A stretch of 64,000 bases of DNA, from positions 1-64,000 of the IMG/VR virus record IMGVR_UViG_3300031669_000012. One strand, given 5' to 3'. Source of the DNA: a virus. The position numbers and the translations under genes were made by a program. How positions within the stretch are numbered: position 1 is the stretch's first letter; each line of letters opens with the position of its first letter. Below the pieces are notes generated by a model. The model made no database searches, was not told where the DNA came from, and worked only from the letters and a program-made list of their open reading frames with translations. Below, one piece after another: positions 501 to 31,972 of this stretch.

Positions 501-899
501 TCAAATTAGATATGTTAGTAAAAAGAATAATCCCCAAAGTAATGCAACAATCAGTGTTGAAGCATGTGCTATTAACTTTATTTTAAAGTATTCAGATAAT
601 GAAATTTTAAAAGAAGTCCATCGAGATATACCATGAGTCTTTTTAAACTCATCAAGAGTTGTAATCAACTTATTATATAGTTCTTCTTCTTTAGGATCTT
701 TATATGATCGTATTGTATCTGGATGCATCGATCTCTTTCTACGTTTAGAATATTCCATTGCTTCCAGTTCTTCATCACTAGGAAGATTTACAATATTACT
801 TATTCTTCCAACTGTTGTTCTTGCTGAAAGATTCACAATAACAGAAATAGTCATATAGACTAATGCAATCAAATAAATTGTCATAATGAATGTGAACAT
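501..899 (-). CDS. Small membrane protein with two transmembrane segments
   Basis: A 132-residue protein with a hydrophobic N-terminal segment (about residues 1-26) and a second at the C-terminus (about 110-131). Between them lies a charged stretch rich in Arg, Lys and Glu containing SKRRKRSMHP. This predicts an inner-membrane protein with both ends anchored and a soluble loop. The family is not recognised. It could be an early host-takeover or superinfection-exclusion protein, but that is a guess from size, topology and position in the early arm. It is followed 6 bp later by the 107-aa gene and preceded by the large structured gene-free stretch at 921-1300. Confidence 0.72.
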   Translation of the reverse strand: MFTFIMTIYLIALVYMTISVIVNLSARTTVGRISNIVNLPSDEELEAMEYSKRRKRSMHPDTIRSYKDPKEEELYNKLITTLDEFKKTHGISRWTSFKISLSEYFKIKLIAHASTLIVALLWGLFFLLTYLI

Positions 900-920
900 A
901 AAGTTTATTTTTAATTAATA

Positions 921-1300
921 GTCGAAAGGGGTAAAAACCTTTCTCGCACACTACTCATAGATTAACTACTCCTATGAGTTACTTTGATAAATATGAACAT
1001 TATCTGTTTTAGTTCATAACCTATTGCTAGTTCAAAGGCATAGCGCAATACTATGCTGCCAATCTCAATACTTCTTAAAATTAGTATTGAAACTACGTTC
1101 TAATCTTCCTAGAGATTGAACTGTTTTTCTGCTTCAATGAGTAGTGGATAAGACTACCTGCACAATGCTTGAATTGCAATTTTCAAAAGCTACTATACTC
1201 ATATCACTATGAGCAAGGCGATATCATTTTATTGTTTCACAACAATTATCAATACCGCTGCCTCCTCGTTTCATATCAGTGGCAGTGTTTGTTATGTAAC
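921..1300. ncRNA. Candidate structured RNA: tandem array of about 11 hairpins
   Basis: Bases 900-1378 carry no convincing gene but a near-continuous run of non-overlapping hairpins. Arms pair 924-929/938-943, 953-960/972-979 (8 bp), 992-998/1012-1018 (7 bp), 1038-1043/1051-1056, 1065-1072/1083-1090 (8 bp), 1097-1106/1113-1121 (9 bp, one bulge), 1141-1145/1153-1157, 1169-1173/1182-1186, 1198-1203/1208-1213, 1231-1236/1241-1246 and 1256-1262/1281-1287 (one G-U). A 14-bp palindrome lies at 1360-1373. Some 5-bp stems are expected by chance in AT-rich DNA; the 7-9 bp stems and the tiling are the real evidence. Orientation is undetermined because wobble pairs point both ways. No tRNA or known riboswitch was recognised. 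Confidence 0.45.
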
Positions 1301-1378: not shown

Positions 1379-1672
1379 TTAGTTGTAAATTTGTTCAATT
1401 GTATAATGCACAGGTGGAGCAATTAATTTCTTAAATACTTTTAACACCTTTGAAGCACTACCAAGACAATTCGCAAAATGTGGATTAGATATTTTGAAAG
1501 TATTAGTTTCATCTAAAGTATCCAAATCAATATATCTATAATCACTTTTACGAACAAAAGGATATGATCCTTTCCTAATAGCATATTTTCCATTTATTTT
1601 GTGAATTTGATAAGGTGCTTTTGCATATTTCAAACCATTCACAAAATAGAACAATCGTATTTTTCCAAACAT
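1379..1672 (-). CDS. Hypothetical protein, 97 aa
   Basis: A small basic protein, not recognised. The frame can be extended to a GTG at 1696, but the ATG at 1672 (MFGKIRLFYFVNG...) is preferred because it follows the stop of the upstream gene at 1674 with almost no gap. The sequence is rich in Lys and Tyr, with HKINGKYAIRKGSYPF in the middle, suggesting a compact beta-rich fold. No membrane segment is visible. It belongs to the tightly packed minus-strand early cluster, and the structured stretch 921-1300 lies directly downstream of its stop codon. Confidence 0.6.
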   Translation of the reverse strand: MFGKIRLFYFVNGLKYAKAPYQIHKINGKYAIRKGSYPFVRKSDYRYIDLDTLDETNTFKISNPHFANCLGSASKVLKVFKKLIAPPVHYTIEQIYN

Positions 1673-1673
1673 A

Positions 1674-1871
1674 TTATTTAATATTGGGATCACCACGTTG
1701 AACAGTATTGTTGGGAGTTTTATTCAAAACATTTTGAGCATATTCCCAAGCTTGCATTACATCTCTATCGAGACACGATTCAAGTTTATGACAATGCAAA
1801 ACATTTGCTACTTTACGAAAAGTATCTTCTATCTGTTTTGCCTGATAAGTCAGGATTGTTAATTCTTCCAT
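1674..1871 (-). CDS. Hypothetical small protein, 65 aa
   Basis: A 65-residue protein starting at ATG 1871 inside the 3' end of the gene at 1813-2205 (59-bp overlap in another frame). The sequence looks helical (EELTILTYQAKQIEDTFRKV) with three cysteines and one histidine in LHCHKLESCLDR, which might bind metal but does not match a known zinc-finger spacing. The overlap and the immediate start of the next gene fit the packing of its neighbours. An opposite-strand frame over the same area is an unlikely alternative. Function unknown. Confidence 0.55.
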   Translation of the reverse strand: MEELTILTYQAKQIEDTFRKVANVLHCHKLESCLDRDVMQAWEYAQNVLNKTPNNTVQRGDPNIK

Positions 1872-3407: not shown

Positions 3408-3731
3408 TCAAAAATACTTATTGTAGACTTCAATTAGCACTTCATATTGTGCTCTAGCCGTAATCAAAGTAATTTCTAAATCAAAAATAGAAACAATTTG
3501 ATTTTTAGCGAAGTCTCTCGATGGATTAACAAAAGGAGTTTTATCCATAGCATTTATTGCTGCAGAACGAAGTTCAATAGTTTCTTCATGTCTAGCAATC
3601 ATGTGTTCAACTCTTGAAATTCTATCCAATAGATCTTTTTTAGAAATATCAAATAAAACTTCTTGAGCAGCAGGAGTATTTGCATAATTAGCAATTATCT
3701 TACTGATTCTGGGTTTCTTTTGATAAGCCAT
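3408..3731 (-). CDS. Hypothetical helical protein, 107 aa
   Basis: The preferred start is the ATG at 3731 (MAYQKKPRISKIIANYA...). The frame extends to 3773, but that adds only a hydrophobic tail overlapping the upstream gene more deeply. The protein is predicted to be almost entirely helical, with heptad-like stretches (VEHMIARHEETIELRSAAIN and FDLEITLITARAQYEVLIEV), so a small coiled-coil or dimeric regulator is possible. It overlaps the end of the gene at 3700-4221 by 32 bp. Hairpin-rich DNA lies directly beyond its stop codon. Not assigned to a family. Confidence 0.6.
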   Translation of the reverse strand: MAYQKKPRISKIIANYANTPAAQEVLFDISKKDLLDRISRVEHMIARHEETIELRSAAINAMDKTPFVNPSRDFAKNQIVSIFDLEITLITARAQYEVLIEVYNKYF

Positions 3732-4221
3732 GTGAATTATTATTAGTAAACAAATGTTCAATATAATTCTCATTTATTTCCATAGCCCTATCTTTAAAAA
3801 TAAAGCGCATGAACGTATTTGCGATTTGTGCAAGTGTAACAGTTTTAAACCGAATTGTATTACAAATAATCGCACCACAATCTCTTTCATAGATTACTTT
3901 GAATCCATGATATTTTGTAGCATCTTTTATTGGCACAAGTAATCTAACTTGAATACCAATTTCATCCTCTTGACAAACTCCATCTACATAATATTTGCCA
4001 ACATGAATATGCTTTGTAGAAGAAACTTTACGAAGAATGCCTTTGAAACTAACTTCGTGTTTAGGTAGATGTTTAACTCTAACACCTAAAATGTTACGAT
4101 AATCTTCTGTATCGTTATAACACCTGACGAAGTTTTCTTTGCACAATTCACGAGTTCTATCTTTACTCAAAGTAATGTTACATTGAGGACATTTACCAAA
4201 TGGTCCATCAGGGTTTCTCAT
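3700..4221 (-). CDS. Hypothetical protein with N-terminal Cys cluster, 173 aa
   Basis: A 173-residue protein. The N-terminus carries a zinc-ribbon-like pattern: C-P-Q-C (about residues 11-14) followed by single cysteines near 27 and 34, consistent with a small metal-binding knob, although the spacing is not that of a named finger. The middle (VKHLPKHEVSFKGILRKVSSTKHIHVGKYYVDG) looks beta-rich, and another C-G-A-I-I-C pair occurs around residues 115-120. It might bind nucleic acid or be a small processing enzyme, but this is speculation. It starts at ATG 4221, 11 bp downstream of the thyX stop, so it probably shares the thyX transcript. Confidence 0.65.
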   Translation of the reverse strand: MRNPDGPFGKCPQCNITLSKDRTRELCKENFVRCYNDTEDYRNILGVRVKHLPKHEVSFKGILRKVSSTKHIHVGKYYVDGVCQEDEIGIQVRLLVPIKDATKYHGFKVIYERDCGAIICNTIRFKTVTLAQIANTFMRFIFKDRAMEINENYIEHLFTNNNSHGLSKETQNQ

Positions 4222-5015: not shown

Positions 5016-5055
5016 TTGGTATCGTAAGATTTAAAGTTTGTTTTGATAAAAACAT

Positions 5056-5144
5056 TTTCTACACTATAAATTATTGGAGAATACCAAAATTTGCAACTTA
5101 TTTCGCATAATTCGGCTCAATTCCAACAACTTATAATGTAGAAA
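5056..5144 (-). ncRNA. Structured thyX leader: long stem-loop
   Basis: In minus-strand RNA, 5131-5144 pairs with 5056-5069 in a 14-bp helix with one U-G wobble. On the plus strand the same position is an A-C mismatch, so the structure is intact only in the thyX sense direction. Inside it, shorter helices appear to stack with internal loops: UUGG/CCAA, then CCGAAUU with AAUUUUGG, then UGCG/UGCA. It ends about 40 bases before the thyX ATG. It could be a cis-regulatory element. It does not resemble a riboswitch I can name. Confidence 0.5.
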
Positions 5145-5259
5145 GTAATCAAACAGTAAGAATCATATAAGCTGTTGCATAAGTCTATTGATTATGTTTG
5201 ATTGATTCAGGAATAGTATCTGGAATCGAATGCATACCAGCAAGATTTGTATAATTATG
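5145..5259. other. Further small hairpins upstream of thyX leader
   Basis: This remainder of the gap between thyX and the 87-aa frame holds no gene. Short hairpins pair 5152-5156/5172-5176, 5178-5182/5192-5196 and 5204-5210/5220-5227 (7 bp, one bulge), with a weak one at 5234-5252. These short stems could arise by chance in AT-rich DNA. They are recorded because they continue the hairpin tiling seen in the other early-arm gaps. Confidence 0.3.
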
Positions 5260-7359: not shown

Positions 7360-7905
7360 GGCAGTTAGTATTAAAAAAGTTTAACAAATAATAGTAAGAT
7401 TGATATGACCCTATTAAATTTTACTTTCATTATTCAGAGAAAGATTCAACGATAGGGGGCATGTCAATCACAAGTTTTAGTAGGGGGTTGTCTAGAAGGA
7501 GGTTCCTCTATACATACATATAAACTACCCTACCATATCTATAAAAACATATATACAATCATTTCCAAATTCAACTCCAATATTAATTAAAAGTTGAACC
7601 CTTATATTAATTTTAAAAGTTAAACCCTTATCCAGAGTTCTATAAAGAATAGTATACAGAGTTCTATTTTCAAATTCATTAATAGCACTATTATCATTAA
7701 TATTAACTTAAATCCTATTTAATCCTTCTTTCCTACAGGGATCATTAATACTAATTAGTTCATAATTTTAAATATTAAAAGTCTTATTAATTAAATCATT
7801 GCTATTATCATTTAAAGATGCATTAATGTTAGTTAGTTCAGAATTTTTTAAATTAATATTAATTTAAGTATCTTTATAAGTATTATAAAATTTTGACGAA
7901 AGGTA
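7360..7905. other. Divergent control region, candidate origin, with iteron-like repeats
   Basis: No gene is seen here. Direct repeats include a 17-mer at 7589-7605 and 7615-7631 (16 of 17 identical), CAGAGTTCTAT at 7633-7643 and 7657-7667, and a 27-mer at 7743-7769 and 7821-7847 (23 of 27). CTATTATCATT, upstream of each 27-mer copy, occurs at about 7688 and 7802. Two G-runs of the type TAGGGGG...GTC lie at 7454-7466 and 7482-7493, and GTAGGG at 7481-7486 is matched by CCCTAC at 7528-7533. The stretch sits where transcription diverges. Repeats, AT-richness and position suggest an origin or regulatory region; that is inference. Confidence 0.5.
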
Positions 7906-7936
7906 TTGATTTTTTCAGAAATTTTTTATAACTTCG
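7906..7936 (+). promoter_or_regulatory. Bacteroidota-type promoter candidate for right arm
   Basis: TTG at 7906-7908, a 20-base spacer, then TAACTTCG at 7929-7936. This is close to the Bacteroidota consensus of TTG (-33) and TAnnTTTG (-7), with one substitution in the -7 box. It faces the right arm, about 60 bp before the possible gene at 7995 and 310 bp before the gene at 8246. It would be used by the host RNA polymerase. Confidence 0.5.
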
Positions 7937-7994
7937 TATTCTACTTGTTAGAACTTTAAATGTAACACATACTATATTTAATTCATATAATAAT

Positions 7995-8174
7995 ATGAAT
8001 AAAATTATTATTAATAATAAAAAAAATAAAATAAAAAATAAATTTAAAAAAAACTTAAAAGATTTTATTTGTATTTCTTCTAAAGATACTTTTTATAATA
8101 CTACAAAAGATATTAATGTTAATATTAATAAAAGATTTTTGTATAATTTTTGCCTTATATATTGTAAAAAATAA
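7995..8174 (+). CDS. Possible very AT-rich small protein, 59 aa
   Basis: A complete ATG-to-TAA frame in extremely AT-rich DNA. The first 20 residues are almost all Lys, Asn and Ile (MNKIIINNKKNKIKN...). The remainder (LKDFICISSKDTFYN, then TTKDINVNINKRFLYN, then FCLIYCKK) looks more protein-like and holds three cysteines. It lies between the promoter candidate at 7906-7936 and the first clear right-arm gene. In DNA of this composition such a frame can occur by chance, so it may be a leader rather than a gene. Confidence 0.3.
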   Translation: MNKIIINNKKNKIKNKFKKNLKDFICISSKDTFYNTTKDINVNINKRFLYNFCLIYCKK

Positions 8175-8245
8175 ATAAATGTATTACATTTACATCATTA
8201 TTAATTAAAGATCATTTTCTTTTTTAAACTTTTAATACTATTACA

Positions 8246-8758
8246 ATGAGCACAGAAAATCAGAATGCAATTGATGCAAATGAAGTTGAACCAATCTATC
8301 CAGTAGATTGTGAAAATCTTGATGATTCAAAACCTTATAGGTTTTTTGAAAGTGATGGGACTACTGAAATTGTAGCAATTAGAGATTGTCATACGTGTTG
8401 CAATATGCTTCCTAGAAACAATCATGTTATTATTAAAAATACTTGGAGAGTTCCTGGTATGTTACTTAATGATGAAAAATCATTAAAATCTCAATTAGAA
8501 CCTTATAAAAAAGAGATTGTTGCTATTCAAGATACTAATTCAGCATTTCAAATTGGAGATGTTATTGAAGTTGCAGCAGGTTCAAGTATTATGCCTGTAA
8601 TGGTAAAAGGTAATAATCTTAATATTAAAAATGTAATGGAAGTTTACAAAGATGGTTTTCAAAAGCATAAGACTGATAAGGGATATAGTGGAAGAACTTA
8701 TGAAGCAGTCGATTACTATCTTGTTCCAGCAGTAATCATTGCAGCAATACAACTCTAA
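8246..8758 (+). CDS. Hypothetical protein, 170 aa, first right-arm gene
   Basis: An acidic 170-residue soluble protein of unknown function. The N-terminus is disordered-looking (STENQNAIDANEVEPIYPVD), followed by a Cys-bearing segment C-H-T-C-C-N-M and a beta-rich middle (IGDVIEVAAGSSIMPVMVKG). The C-terminus (AVDYYLVPAVIIAAIQL) is hydrophobic but too short and mixed to be a clear membrane anchor. It is the first clear gene after the candidate promoter, and its stop overlaps the next start as TAATG, which suggests coupled translation. Confidence 0.7.
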   Translation: MSTENQNAIDANEVEPIYPVDCENLDDSKPYRFFESDGTTEIVAIRDCHTCCNMLPRNNHVIIKNTWRVPGMLLNDEKSLKSQLEPYKKEIVAIQDTNSAFQIGDVIEVAAGSSIMPVMVKGNNLNIKNVMEVYKDGFQKHKTDKGYSGRTYEAVDYYLVPAVIIAAIQL

Positions 8759-25450: not shown

Positions 25451-27786
25451 TGAGTATAGATAAAACTTCTTCTTATTTTTTACGACGTCAAGAACCTTTA
25501 GATAAAAAGGCATGGCTTGATATACAAGGAATGAATTCTTTAGTTCTTAGTGATAGATATCCTTGGATGTTAGTTGTTGAAAAAACAAGTGGACAATTAT
25601 ATCAATTACAACCTGTAGCAATACCTTCTACAGCAGATCTTGTAAATGATTGGACATTTAAACCTTTTTCAACTGGTGGCGGAACATCTAATTATCAAAA
25701 CGTAATATGGACAAATGGAATTCCATATCAAATAGGATATGTTGTATTTTTTGGTGAAAAGATTTATATAAGTAAAACAATAAATATTGATAAAGCTCCT
25801 GTAGTAAATGGAATATTAGATACTGTCAATTGGTATGAATCTGGAATTAGTTTGTATTCTCATCCTAAGAATCAAGATTTGAGATTAGGAAGAAGTTGGA
25901 ATTTTATATCTGCTGTTGGTTATACTCCTGCAGGCAATAGTATGCAAGGATTAGATATTAGAAATTATTATAAAACTGTAAATACTTGTCAATTATCGAT
26001 AAAAGATAGTGCTTCATTTGGTAGTTTAGTGATTGACAATTCAAATGGAATAAATTTAGAAGATATAACCGTAAATGATTTTTTAATTGTTTTCAATTTT
26101 TATAATGGAGTAGATGTTAATACTCCACCTGCAACAACTAAAACAATAACATTTAAAGATACACTAAATGTTTCTAATACAGATATTTTTCCAATGTTTC
26201 TTGGTGGAAAGGATATCACATTTAGTTCTGATGATGGTGCATTTGGTCAATTTATACACTTCAAATTAGATATTTATAATAGAATCTATCTTTATAATAG
26301 TTCTAAAAAAGATATTACTGCAACAGTTATTTCTTCAGATTTGAAACCTGTATTGGCAATACTTCCGGATTTATCTAATTTTCCAACAAATGAAATAGGA
26401 GACAGATATATTGTGGCAAATAGTATATATGAGAAATATCCAAATTCTTCAACATATACTAAAGTATTAGATGCTAGTTTACTAGAATTAGGACAAGCAG
26501 TAGTTGTTCAAACTAATCCTGCAAGTTGGTATATTTGGAATGGAAGTTCGTGGAATAAGGATGCTGCATATGATCCAAGTAAAATTGATAATATTGTAGA
26601 TTATTTTAATGGTAACAATCATACATATAAGAGATTTACTGAAGAACTTGTTGCAGATCCTACAGGTGAAAGTTCTGAAAAGATAATTGTTCCAACTTAC
26701 ATTTCAGATGGTATTACAAAACATTTGACAGATATTAAAACTTATTATTCGGATTGTGCTATCGATTCTCCAAATACAAATCAAGACGGAGATAAAGTTA
26801 CAATATATAAAGTGTTAAGATATGATAATATTGAATTAGTAAATAATGAAAATTATAGAATGGTTACAGCTTTTGTTCCATCTGATAAAAAAGTTTATAT
26901 GATGATATATGACATAACTAATTCAAATAAATATTTAGATTGGACACAAATATATCCTATGTCTGTAAATTCAATTGCAGAATTTAATCTAGGAGATTTT
27001 ATAAATAAAAATAATTTTATATTAAGTATTGATGAAACATCAAATAAAATTATTGCAAAAGATTTTTCATATACAGACATTGTTCCTTTAGAAGATGATT
27101 TTCAAGGAATGAGTAAAAATCAAACATTCAATAAGATTCCAATTTCAACTATGATACACGATATAATACATAAATATTATAAGCCTGTTGCAACATTTTT
27201 ATGTGGGATACCTACATATAATGAACTAGGAAGTCAATTTCCAACTGAAACATTGTTTACATGGATATATCAAAATTCTCAAAACATATTGATAGATGCA
27301 GTTTCAGGAATGCATATAGAAATTTTAGATTCTACTAATGGTGGAGCAATATTATTCACTACTGATAATGCAAATAGTTCTGAATTAGTTGCACTTCAAA
27401 ATCTTACAATTCCTCAAGTTCAAGTATTTAGACTGCAATGTTATGATATAAAAGGAAATCTTATAACTAAAGATATAACTATATATGGTGTTAATCCTAT
27501 ATACTATGGAGCCAGTAATCTTGAATCATTGGCAGATACAGATATACTACTTATGATTAAGACATTGATAAATAATTGGAAAACTACTTATCCTATTGCA
27601 GATAGTGGGTATAAATATATAAATATTCCTGTTTCAACTGGAACGCCTGTTGCATTTAAAGATGCTGATACAGGATTTGCAATAGATATGCAAAGTTCAA
27701 TAGTTATAACAGTAAATGGAATAGATTATAATTCATATAGATCGACTAACATATTACATTCTTCAGTTAACATAATTGTATCATAA
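25450..27786 (+). CDS. Fibre-like virion protein, 778 aa
   Basis: A 778-residue beta-rich protein. Its N-terminus (SSYFLRRQEPLDKKAWLDIQ, then YPWMLVVEKTSGQLYQLQ) follows a pattern seen at the N-termini of Bacteroidota-phage fibre proteins: an arginine, 'P-L-D', then two hydrophobic strands with a final ly-x-L. The middle contains GDRYIVANSIYEKYPNSSTY and YIWNGSSWNKD, typical of carbohydrate-binding-like fibre repeats. TAATG overlaps join it to both neighbours. It probably forms part of a host-recognition fibre. The tail and head location cannot be separated from sequence alone. Confidence 0.7.
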   Translation: MSIDKTSSYFLRRQEPLDKKAWLDIQGMNSLVLSDRYPWMLVVEKTSGQLYQLQPVAIPSTADLVNDWTFKPFSTGGGTSNYQNVIWTNGIPYQIGYVVFFGEKIYISKTINIDKAPVVNGILDTVNWYESGISLYSHPKNQDLRLGRSWNFISAVGYTPAGNSMQGLDIRNYYKTVNTCQLSIKDSASFGSLVIDNSNGINLEDITVNDFLIVFNFYNGVDVNTPPATTKTITFKDTLNVSNTDIFPMFLGGKDITFSSDDGAFGQFIHFKLDIYNRIYLYNSSKKDITATVISSDLKPVLAILPDLSNFPTNEIGDRYIVANSIYEKYPNSSTYTKVLDASLLELGQAVVVQTNPASWYIWNGSSWNKDAAYDPSKIDNIVDYFNGNNHTYKRFTEELVADPTGESSEKIIVPTYISDGITKHLTDIKTYYSDCAIDSPNTNQDGDKVTIYKVLRYDNIELVNNENYRMVTAFVPSDKKVYMMIYDITNSNKYLDWTQIYPMSVNSIAEFNLGDFINKNNFILSIDETSNKIIAKDFSYTDIVPLEDDFQGMSKNQTFNKIPISTMIHDIIHKYYKPVATFLCGIPTYNELGSQFPTETLFTWIYQNSQNILIDAVSGMHIEILDSTNGGAILFTTDNANSSELVALQNLTIPQVQVFRLQCYDIKGNLITKDITIYGVNPIYYGASNLESLADTDILLMIKTLINNWKTTYPIADSGYKYINIPVSTGTPVAFKDADTGFAIDMQSSIVITVNGIDYNSYRSTNILHSSVNIIVS

Positions 27787-29417
27787 TGAGCACAGCACAA
27801 TCAAGTAGTGGAGTTGGAGTAACTGGAACAATCGTTAGAAAAGATCCTAATGATACGTATCCTACTCATAAAGCCTCTTTAGGAAAAGGAGGATATTTTG
27901 AAGTTGATGATATTGCTGCAAGAGACAATATACCAAGTGAACAAAGAACTTTAGGAATGCACGTATATTGTGTTGCAGAAAATGAAACATATATACTTAA
28001 AATAGCATTAGATAATGCAAGTTGGGTATTAGATCAAAGTGCTGGAGTTACAGATCACTATGCTCTAACACATATTGGAGTAAATACTCACGATCAAATA
28101 GATGAATTTATTTCAAGTAAAGGAAATGCAAATGGATTAGTTCCTTTAGGAGCTGACACAAAAATACCAACACAATATATTCCTGCTTTAGCAATATTAG
28201 ATGTTGTATATGCTGCAAGTGAAGCTGAAATGTTAGCAGCGTCTGTTCAAAAAGGAGATTTGTGCATAAGAAATGATGAAGCAAAAACATATATTTTAAA
28301 AACAGACGATCCTACACAACTTATAAATTGGGCACTTTTATTATTTCCTGGTAGTGTTGTTTCAGTAAATGGAAAAACAGGAGTTGTAGCATTAAGTTTA
28401 ACAGATCTGATTGATGCTTCAATAGTAAGTCCTGTAAATAGAAATTGCATAGTATATAATTCTACAACAGGATTATTTGAAAATAGAATGGTTACAATGG
28501 ACGATATTACAGATTTAGTTACAACTTTATCTGCTAAAGCTCCAAGTATTCATACACACACTGTTTCTCAAATAACTGATTATATTACCGATATTACAAG
28601 TAGATTACTTGCTTATGCTCCAATTTCTCATACTCAAGCAATATCTACAATAACTGATTTACAAAATCAATTAAATACTATAAATACAAATCTTGCAGGC
28701 AAAGCCCCAATAGTTCATACACATGTTATTGCAAATGTAACAGGATTACAAACTGCATTAGATGGAGTAACTAAAGGACTGGGTATAGCAACTGCTGCAA
28801 ATATTTCTTCTATAACTACTTCAATGGTAAGACTTGGAACAATATTATACATTGAAGATGAAACTAAGTATTATAAATGTTTAGACAATGCTACTCCAAA
28901 TGTGATTACTGCTTGGCAACAAATTGATGGAACATCTTTTGATAGTTTTGAATTATTTACTACAGATACACCAACTATACAAGGACAACATAGAGATAGA
29001 TTGTTTGAATTAGATATTCTTACAAATTTGGCTACTAGAAGTATTCCAATCACTTTAAAATTTCCAATTAATATTTTAACAAATGGGGATGTAATATTAA
29101 TACCTATTTCTCAAACTCCTATGAAATTTATGATTACAGATATATATTATGTGTATACAACTATTTCAGGAGTTACTGTCACTAACCCAGCATATATAAA
29201 AATCGGCAATAATGCTTCAAAAGATAATATATTAGGATCTACAAATTTACATGTAGATAATATAGCAAATTCTTTAGCATTGTTTACTAAACTAATCCCT
29301 TCTACAAATTATATAATCGATTTGACTTCTGCAAATGTTGTTATGAATATAACTCCTCCTGTAAGTGGTTGGACTATTGGAGCAATTGAGTTATTTTTAC
29401 AAGGAATAATTTTATAA
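27786..29417 (+). CDS. Fibre protein with repeats typical of phage fibres, 543 aa
   Basis: A 543-residue protein with clear fibre signatures: N-G-L-V-P-L-G-A-D-T-K-I-P-T-Q-Y-I-P near residue 115, the segment S-V-N-G-K-T-G-V-V-A-L-S-L-T-D-L near 195, and a run of H-x-H/trimer-like repeats (KAPSIHTHTVSQITDYITDI, LQNQLNTINTNLAGKAPIVH) around 245-320. The C-terminal 200 residues form a separate beta domain, probably the receptor-binding head. It is coupled to its upstream gene by TAATG and lies 2 bp from the LRR-like gene. Confidence 0.8.
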   Translation: MSTAQSSSGVGVTGTIVRKDPNDTYPTHKASLGKGGYFEVDDIAARDNIPSEQRTLGMHVYCVAENETYILKIALDNASWVLDQSAGVTDHYALTHIGVNTHDQIDEFISSKGNANGLVPLGADTKIPTQYIPALAILDVVYAASEAEMLAASVQKGDLCIRNDEAKTYILKTDDPTQLINWALLLFPGSVVSVNGKTGVVALSLTDLIDASIVSPVNRNCIVYNSTTGLFENRMVTMDDITDLVTTLSAKAPSIHTHTVSQITDYITDITSRLLAYAPISHTQAISTITDLQNQLNTINTNLAGKAPIVHTHVIANVTGLQTALDGVTKGLGIATAANISSITTSMVRLGTILYIEDETKYYKCLDNATPNVITAWQQIDGTSFDSFELFTTDTPTIQGQHRDRLFELDILTNLATRSIPITLKFPINILTNGDVILIPISQTPMKFMITDIYYVYTTISGVTVTNPAYIKIGNNASKDNILGSTNLHVDNIANSLALFTKLIPSTNYIIDLTSANVVMNITPPVSGWTIGAIELFLQGIIL

Positions 29418-31302: not shown

Positions 31303-31972
31303 TTCATTAGAACCTTGGATGGTATTTGTAATAGCAATGATGCTAGTATTAATACCAATCTTGACAGAGGTTATACGACAAGTTCGACAATCTAGAAAAG
31401 ATAAAACTATAAATACTTTTACAAGTAATTTGTATAATTCACAAAATAATATATTTGCACAATTGCATAGAGTTGCAACTATAATAGAATCTAGTAATAA
31501 GGATACTTCTCATAGAATGACTGAATTAATTGATATTCTTTATGAAAAGTTTGCAAATAATATTACGCAAGTTGTAGCAATGGATATAATAGACTTAGTT
31601 TACAGTAGAACTAAATTATCAATATTAGATACAATTGGAGAAGCAATTTGTTTAGAAGATAATTATTCAGAAGAAAGATTCATGATAAATAGAGTTGAAA
31701 CTACTATAAGAACTCACGTAACAAATAGATACTTTCAAGATGCAAGATTTTTAAACAAACTTACATGTAGAGGAATTAAATTAGATTTTCATTTAAGTAA
31801 GAAAATGGATATGGAAGATTTTTCTAATAAATTATTGAACCTAATATCCATTTCTGCTAGTGAATCTTCTGATATATTGTATAGAGAAGTTAGAACTTTT
31901 ATAAATAACTATTTTACAACACAAATTAGTAAGGCTAAAACAGAACTAGACCTGCTAACAAAAGACTCTTAA
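31277..31972 (+). CDS. Membrane-anchored helical protein, 231 aa
   Basis: A 231-residue protein with a single transmembrane helix at residues about 13-33 (PWMVFVIAMMLVLIPILTEV), followed by a long helical cytoplasmic or periplasmic domain rich in charged residues (IIESSNKDTSHRMTELIDIL). The next gene encodes a small three-helix protein, 3 bp downstream, so the two may act together in membrane permeabilisation or in DNA ejection. The overall type resembles a membrane-anchored antiholin or regulator, but this is speculative. No lipobox or enzyme motif. Confidence 0.6.
   Translation: MKDLTLLTDSLEPWMVFVIAMMLVLIPILTEVIRQVRQSRKDKTINTFTSNLYNSQNNIFAQLHRVATIIESSNKDTSHRMTELIDILYEKFANNITQVVAMDIIDLVYSRTKLSILDTIGEAICLEDNYSEERFMINRVETTIRTHVTNRYFQDARFLNKLTCRGIKLDFHLSKKMDMEDFSNKLLNLISISASESSDILYREVRTFINNYFTTQISKAKTELDLLTKDS

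Follow-up and report, generated by a model that had tools for sequence, protein, structure and literature searches.

A hairpin-rich noncoding gap and a conserved RNA module in the early arm of a Crassvirales phage

Analysis of the leftward early arm of a Crassvirales phage contig reveals a noncoding gap (900-1378) in which hairpins are more frequent and folding is more stable than in shuffled sequence, and which is bordered on both sides by genes of the minus strand. The most likely account of this gap, which we hold with slightly better than even confidence, is that it encodes a structured leader or else a stable RNA released by processing of the early transcript; the hairpin array would then be a structured, orphan early RNA that probably serves ORF 899-501 as its leader. 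A second element of the same arm, a module at 3408-3281, is probably the most novel feature of the window, by which we mean the whole stretch of 64,000 nucleotides that was analyzed. Crassvirales are abundant gut viruses and, to our knowledge, descriptions of them have so far mostly been about proteins. If large structured RNAs are indeed a part of their early arms, these would represent an unexamined layer of Crassvirales biology. The array is a lead only, since no conservation could be demonstrated, whereas the module, compact and strongly covarying, makes the firmer case: in phages it occurs next to or within tmRNAs and in front of tRNAs, and it is found in neither Rfam nor the literature searched.

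Genomic setting and hairpin content of the gap

The window comprises positions 1-64,000 of the 85,238-bp contig G000 (virus record IMGVR_UViG_3300031669_000012). On the evidence of its protein sequences the contig is assigned to a Crassvirales phage, which bears out the phage setting proposed in the initial annotation: the portal is approximately 27-29% identical to crAss-like portals over nearly its full length, and the major capsid protein shares 42% identity with that of cr127_1 (Crevaviridae). The closest capsid in IMG/VR reaches just 52% identity (MCP alignment, 80 loci), so that the collections searched yielded no close relative. Rightward structural genes start at 8.2 kb, leftward early genes run from approximately 7.2 kb to position 1, and cumulative GC skew is lowest at approximately 7.7 kb and highest at approximately 65.2 kb. 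The hairpin array sits in the gap between two early ORFs (Table 1); there are no tRNAs in the window, nor in the remainder of the contig. The divergent point and the GC-skew minimum fall in a gap of 10-25% GC with long inverted repeats (7600-8250), which is a candidate for an origin or for an early promoter region. On the plus strand, a very long open frame extends from approximately 50350 past 64000, ending at approximately 65.55 kb of the contig; this frame may encode a putative giant protein about 5,000 residues long. An alternative genetic code for 50-64 kb is unneeded, this stretch being one very long open frame that leaves the window.

All four of the longer stems described in the initial annotation are present at or very near their positions there, and the hairpins of 921-1300 are real, beyond chance. 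Counting non-overlapping Watson-Crick hairpins in this stretch and in 300 dinucleotide-preserving shuffles of it yielded 10 against 3.9 +/- 1.5 for stems of at least 5 bp, 8 against 1.3 +/- 1.1 for at least 6 bp, and 2 against 0.1 for at least 8 bp. Over the whole contig, 380 nt contain on average 2.0 +/- 1.35 hairpins of at least 6 bp; the contig maximum is attained both by 921-1300 and by part of the AT-rich gap near 7.6 kb. Stems of 5 bp are as numerous (10-11) in several other 380-nt stretches, as had been expected.

The comparison with dinucleotide-shuffled controls suggested at the outset gave z -3.75 for the plus and -3.29 for the minus strand of 921-1300, none of the 100 shuffles being as good. 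Of the 380-nt windows sampled from the same genome, 4-7% also give z <= -3.3, so that energy alone is weak evidence. Of the original structured-RNA reading, the better-than-shuffled folding and the noncoding location hold, whereas the energy proves unexceptional for the genome. These several percent of similarly folding windows, together with several coding windows that hold 7 hairpins of at least 6 bp and the failure of any search to find a homologue, are what would be expected if the structure were without function, a product of chance or a relic in intergenic DNA that evolves fast. We nevertheless consider such an origin possible but rather unlikely, given the 8 hairpins where 1.3 are expected, the rank of the 242-nt domain described below among the top few minus-strand windows, and the presumable cost of 480 noncoding bases to a compact phage genome.

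Table 1. Coordinates of the array, its surroundings, the conserved module and other structured gaps
Feature	Position or locus	Strand	Details
Upstream early ORF	1379..1696	-	105 aa, orphan
Downstream early ORF	501..899	-	132 aa, orphan, both ends hydrophobic
Two GUGA-loop hairpins	1196..1258	-	1258-1218 (inner 1246-1231) and 1215-1196; 5' of domain
Branched RNA domain (predicted)	917..1158	-	Two long-range closing helices; z -3.94
Outer closing helix	1158-1152/923-917	-	7 bp, GGUAGUC/GACUAUU; pairing probability 0.55
Inner closing helix	1146-1137/958-949	-	10 bp, CACUACUCAU/AUGAGUAGUG; pairing probability 0.95
Hairpin	1097..1121	-	9 bp, one bulge; pairing probability 0.94-0.98
Hairpin	1060..1095	-	13 bp including G-U pairs, 8-bp perfect core; probability 0.90
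Perfect hairpin	1065-1072/1083-1090		8 bp, loop 10
Hairpin	1038..1056	-	7 bp, five-base loop; probability 0.91
Helix around hairpin	982..1037	-	6-bp helix 1037-1032/987-982 around 7-bp hairpin 1018-992; probabilities 0.81, 0.94
Hairpin	992-998/1012-1018		7 bp
Perfect hairpin	953-960/972-979 (953..979)	-	8 bp, loop 11; alternative to 10-bp long-range helix
Hairpin abutting outer closing helix	924..943	-	6 bp; probability 0.77
Conserved RNA module	3408-3281	-	Directly after ORF 3408-3773, before terminator 3262-3233
Strong intrinsic terminator	3262-3233	-	12 pairs followed by TTTTT, immediately 3' of module
Module just upstream of tmRNA (Rfam scans)	L122, L126, L128, L130, L132, L133, L180, L188
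Module inside tmRNA-matched stretch (Rfam scans)	L135, L161, L165, L193, L205
Module 0-6 nt before a tRNA (Rfam scans)	L134, L160, L178, L185, L190
Module about 0.7 kb before GOLLD 3' domain (Rfam scans)	L187
Noncoding gap upstream of Thy1 gene	5016-5259	-	z -6.3, 23-bp stem
Structured noncoding gap, G002 early arm	27138-27444		z -8.0; just upstream of homologue of ORF 2171-2581
Structured noncoding gap, G002 early arm	31353-31760		z -6.4; further on from 27138-27444

Predicted architecture and strand

A partition-function fold of 900-1378 on the minus strand suggests that the best-defined unit of the gap is the domain 1158-917. Folded alone it gives z -3.94 (0/200 shuffles), a value of -3.9 being reached by 3 of the 213 sampled minus-strand windows of the domain's length. 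The initial annotation had pictured small hairpins tiled along the gap; the hairpins do exist, whereas the lowest-energy picture is that of a branched domain closed by long-range helices, because the 10-bp long-range helix excludes hairpin 953-979. On the minus strand the helix is the better of these two mutually exclusive elements by approximately 5 kcal/mol; on the plus strand they are about equal in energy. Between the end of the domain and the start codon of ORF 899-501 lie 17 nt. The A-rich start region of this ORF is largely unpaired and is covered by neither alternative state, so that a simple translation switch is not favored.

The plus strand folds as significantly as the minus (z -4.33), and energy therefore cannot decide between the strands. 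Other features favor the minus strand in a suggestive manner, namely the orientation of both flanking ORFs, the extension of stems by G-U pairing (16 pairs on the minus strand vs. 7 on the plus, the latter including Watson-Crick pairs common to both strands), two GUGA loops, and single strands that are rich in A and poor in G. As A-richness likewise marks the coding strand of the neighboring genes, the last of these is itself suggestive only. The equal folding of the two strands, and the ability of perfect palindromic arms to form in DNA as well, would also suit a DNA-level element, such as an origin, packaging site or set of protein-binding palindromes. We regard this as very improbable: the GC-skew extremes (approximately 7.7 kb and 65.2 kb) are away from the array, all arms differ and none of the listed repeat families provides a repeated unit, and the G-U extensions point to RNA. 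A skew origin is rejected for the array, which is not at the GC-skew minimum, and so is a tandem repeat array of the CRISPR, attC or iteron type, no repeat family having copies along it.

Beyond the observed hairpin and folding excess, the noncoding gap and the gene orientation, we infer transcription of the minus strand, formation of the structure in the cell and a role as leader or stable RNA. The structured RNA encoded by the gap would measure roughly 340 nt, from about 1258 to 917, and would be read jointly with the leftward early genes. Two GUGA-capped hairpins would come first, followed by the branched domain closed by its two long-range helices, and the RNA would stop short of the small ORF 899-501, immediately ahead of its start codon. 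Folding would separate the array part of the message while the A-rich start region stays open.

Search for relatives and the conserved module at 3408-3281

No homologue of the array DNA was found among 50,697 phage records. Against 16 crAss-like records from the MCP set only matches of 14 to 33 nt were obtained; full reading of three of them revealed no wider similarity, and these three were attributed to chance. An exact 17-mer of the array matched one IMG/VR entry, a 152-kb contig, in what is apparently coding sequence, and the match did not extend. Neither the proteins of the flanking genes, used as IMG/VR queries, nor the portal as a single query recovered close relatives from that database, ORF 501-899 had no match in 22 records, and nhmmer and relaxed blastn across the collected loci gave nothing significant for the array. 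Structured noncoding gaps do recur in the early arms of the present contig and of G002 (IMGVR_UViG_3300002220_000240), a 96-kb relative with a capsid identity of 51%, which provides indirect support; no sequence similarity was found between the array and these other gaps (5016-5259 and those of G002). In cr127_1 (MT774393.1), a gap near the convergent end (28589-28934) folds with z about -14 and contains a long inverted repeat.

The recurrence of structured gaps in both early arms, the long-range closure that makes the domain self-contained, and its absence from Rfam would fit a free-standing large noncoding RNA of a new class, GOLLD/ROOL-like in being self-contained and possibly oligomeric, rather than a leader. 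Such an RNA would be far smaller than GOLLD, in a contig without tRNAs to adjoin, its own terminator is missing and no second example was found; we consider it unlikely. A new class of self-contained early crAss-like phage RNA unrelated to GOLLD and ROOL, one among several structured RNAs occupying the section of the early arms with small ORFs, is a tentative possibility.

The first indication of the module at 3408-3281, which lies 2 kb from the array in the same early arm, was a DNA match of 81% to the 462-kb phage LR756500. It consists, in order, of P1, AGGUG, GCUCCCUU, a variable arm, a hairpin with a loop such as CUGA, then GCAUCUGA, a variable hairpin, UAUACAGGGGGCGAAA and P1'; its signature is AGGUGGCUCCC ... 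UAUACAGGGGGCGAAA, together with the covariation of P1 and of the inner hairpin. The 16-base core occurs in at least 119 IMG/VR stretches, and the core with its upstream half in 56 distinct places, the module being present in approximately 55 distinct phage contigs, whereas none of the 30 core matches in GTDB genomes contains the module. Among the crAss-like loci searched, model R1 identified one copy, that of the present contig. An alignment of 36 sequences shows strong covariation of P1 and the inner hairpin, with a score of 0.431 against 0.132 in shuffled alignments (0/500) and at most 0.093 in slid controls, and with 117 double-change cells; the GCUCCCU/AGGGGGC helix is invariant in this alignment, an invariance largely imposed by the exact search seeds.

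Where the module is associated with tmRNA, a boxA-like UGUUCUUUGAAA often lies between the two. Terminator-like hairpins were also seen by eye right after the module in L088 and L147. Permuted-like copies occur in L136, L127, L215, L230, L124 and L152; in these, the strand 3' of GGGGGCGAAA can pair just 5' of UAUACA and not with the 5' flank, and the open end can be read as if moved to another stem. Rfam 15 holds no family for the module, and its core was not found as text in the literature searched, which leaves room for a description elsewhere; it is apparently a phage RNA new to the literature. Identity with the theta ribozyme, an HDV-like motif (PMC10879173), was provisionally rejected, as the strand order appears not to fit by our own mapping. 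Possible roles of the module include processing or protection of adjoining RNAs, antitermination, or action as a protein- or ligand-binding domain.

Comparison with known RNA classes

As the initial annotation had stated for GOLLD and ROOL, the array matches neither: cmscan against Rfam returned no family, while the same library does detect GOLLD, tmRNA and tRNA in other loci. At a permissive Rfam threshold STnc361 scored 27.8 bits against a cut-off of 80, and was dismissed as an A+T-rich chance match. The likeness to GOLLD (RF02032) is that of a large structured phage RNA outside coding genes. GOLLD is often longer than 800 nt and located near tRNA islands (PMC12286853), whereas the array RNA would measure approximately 340 nt in a contig without tRNAs, and the RF02032 covariance model, which finds GOLLD in L187, gave no match on the array. 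ROOL, an ornate phage RNA of unknown function, is branched with long-range contacts (PMC12286853), as the predicted array domain is branched with long-range closure; the array differs in having no tRNA island, no relative found and no Rfam match, the ROOL negative relying on the overall Rfam scan rather than on a separately checked ROOL model.

tmRNAs are carried by related-host phages, and the 7-bp outer helix of the array with its abutting 3' hairpin recalls a tRNA-like end. This helix, with TTGGCAGCATAG (Leu-Ala-Ala-stop) at 1062-1051, had prompted the idea of a tmRNA, which was rejected: RF00023 has no match in the contig even at E 10, and the array is without a canonical T-loop. No promoter or terminator delimiting the array was found. 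Whereas riboswitch- or attenuator-like leaders differ from it in that the array belongs to no known riboswitch family, keeps the start region open in both states and has no terminator, it resembles structured 5' leaders of this kind in its place on the coding strand, immediately ahead of a start codon, and in its two mutually exclusive helices.
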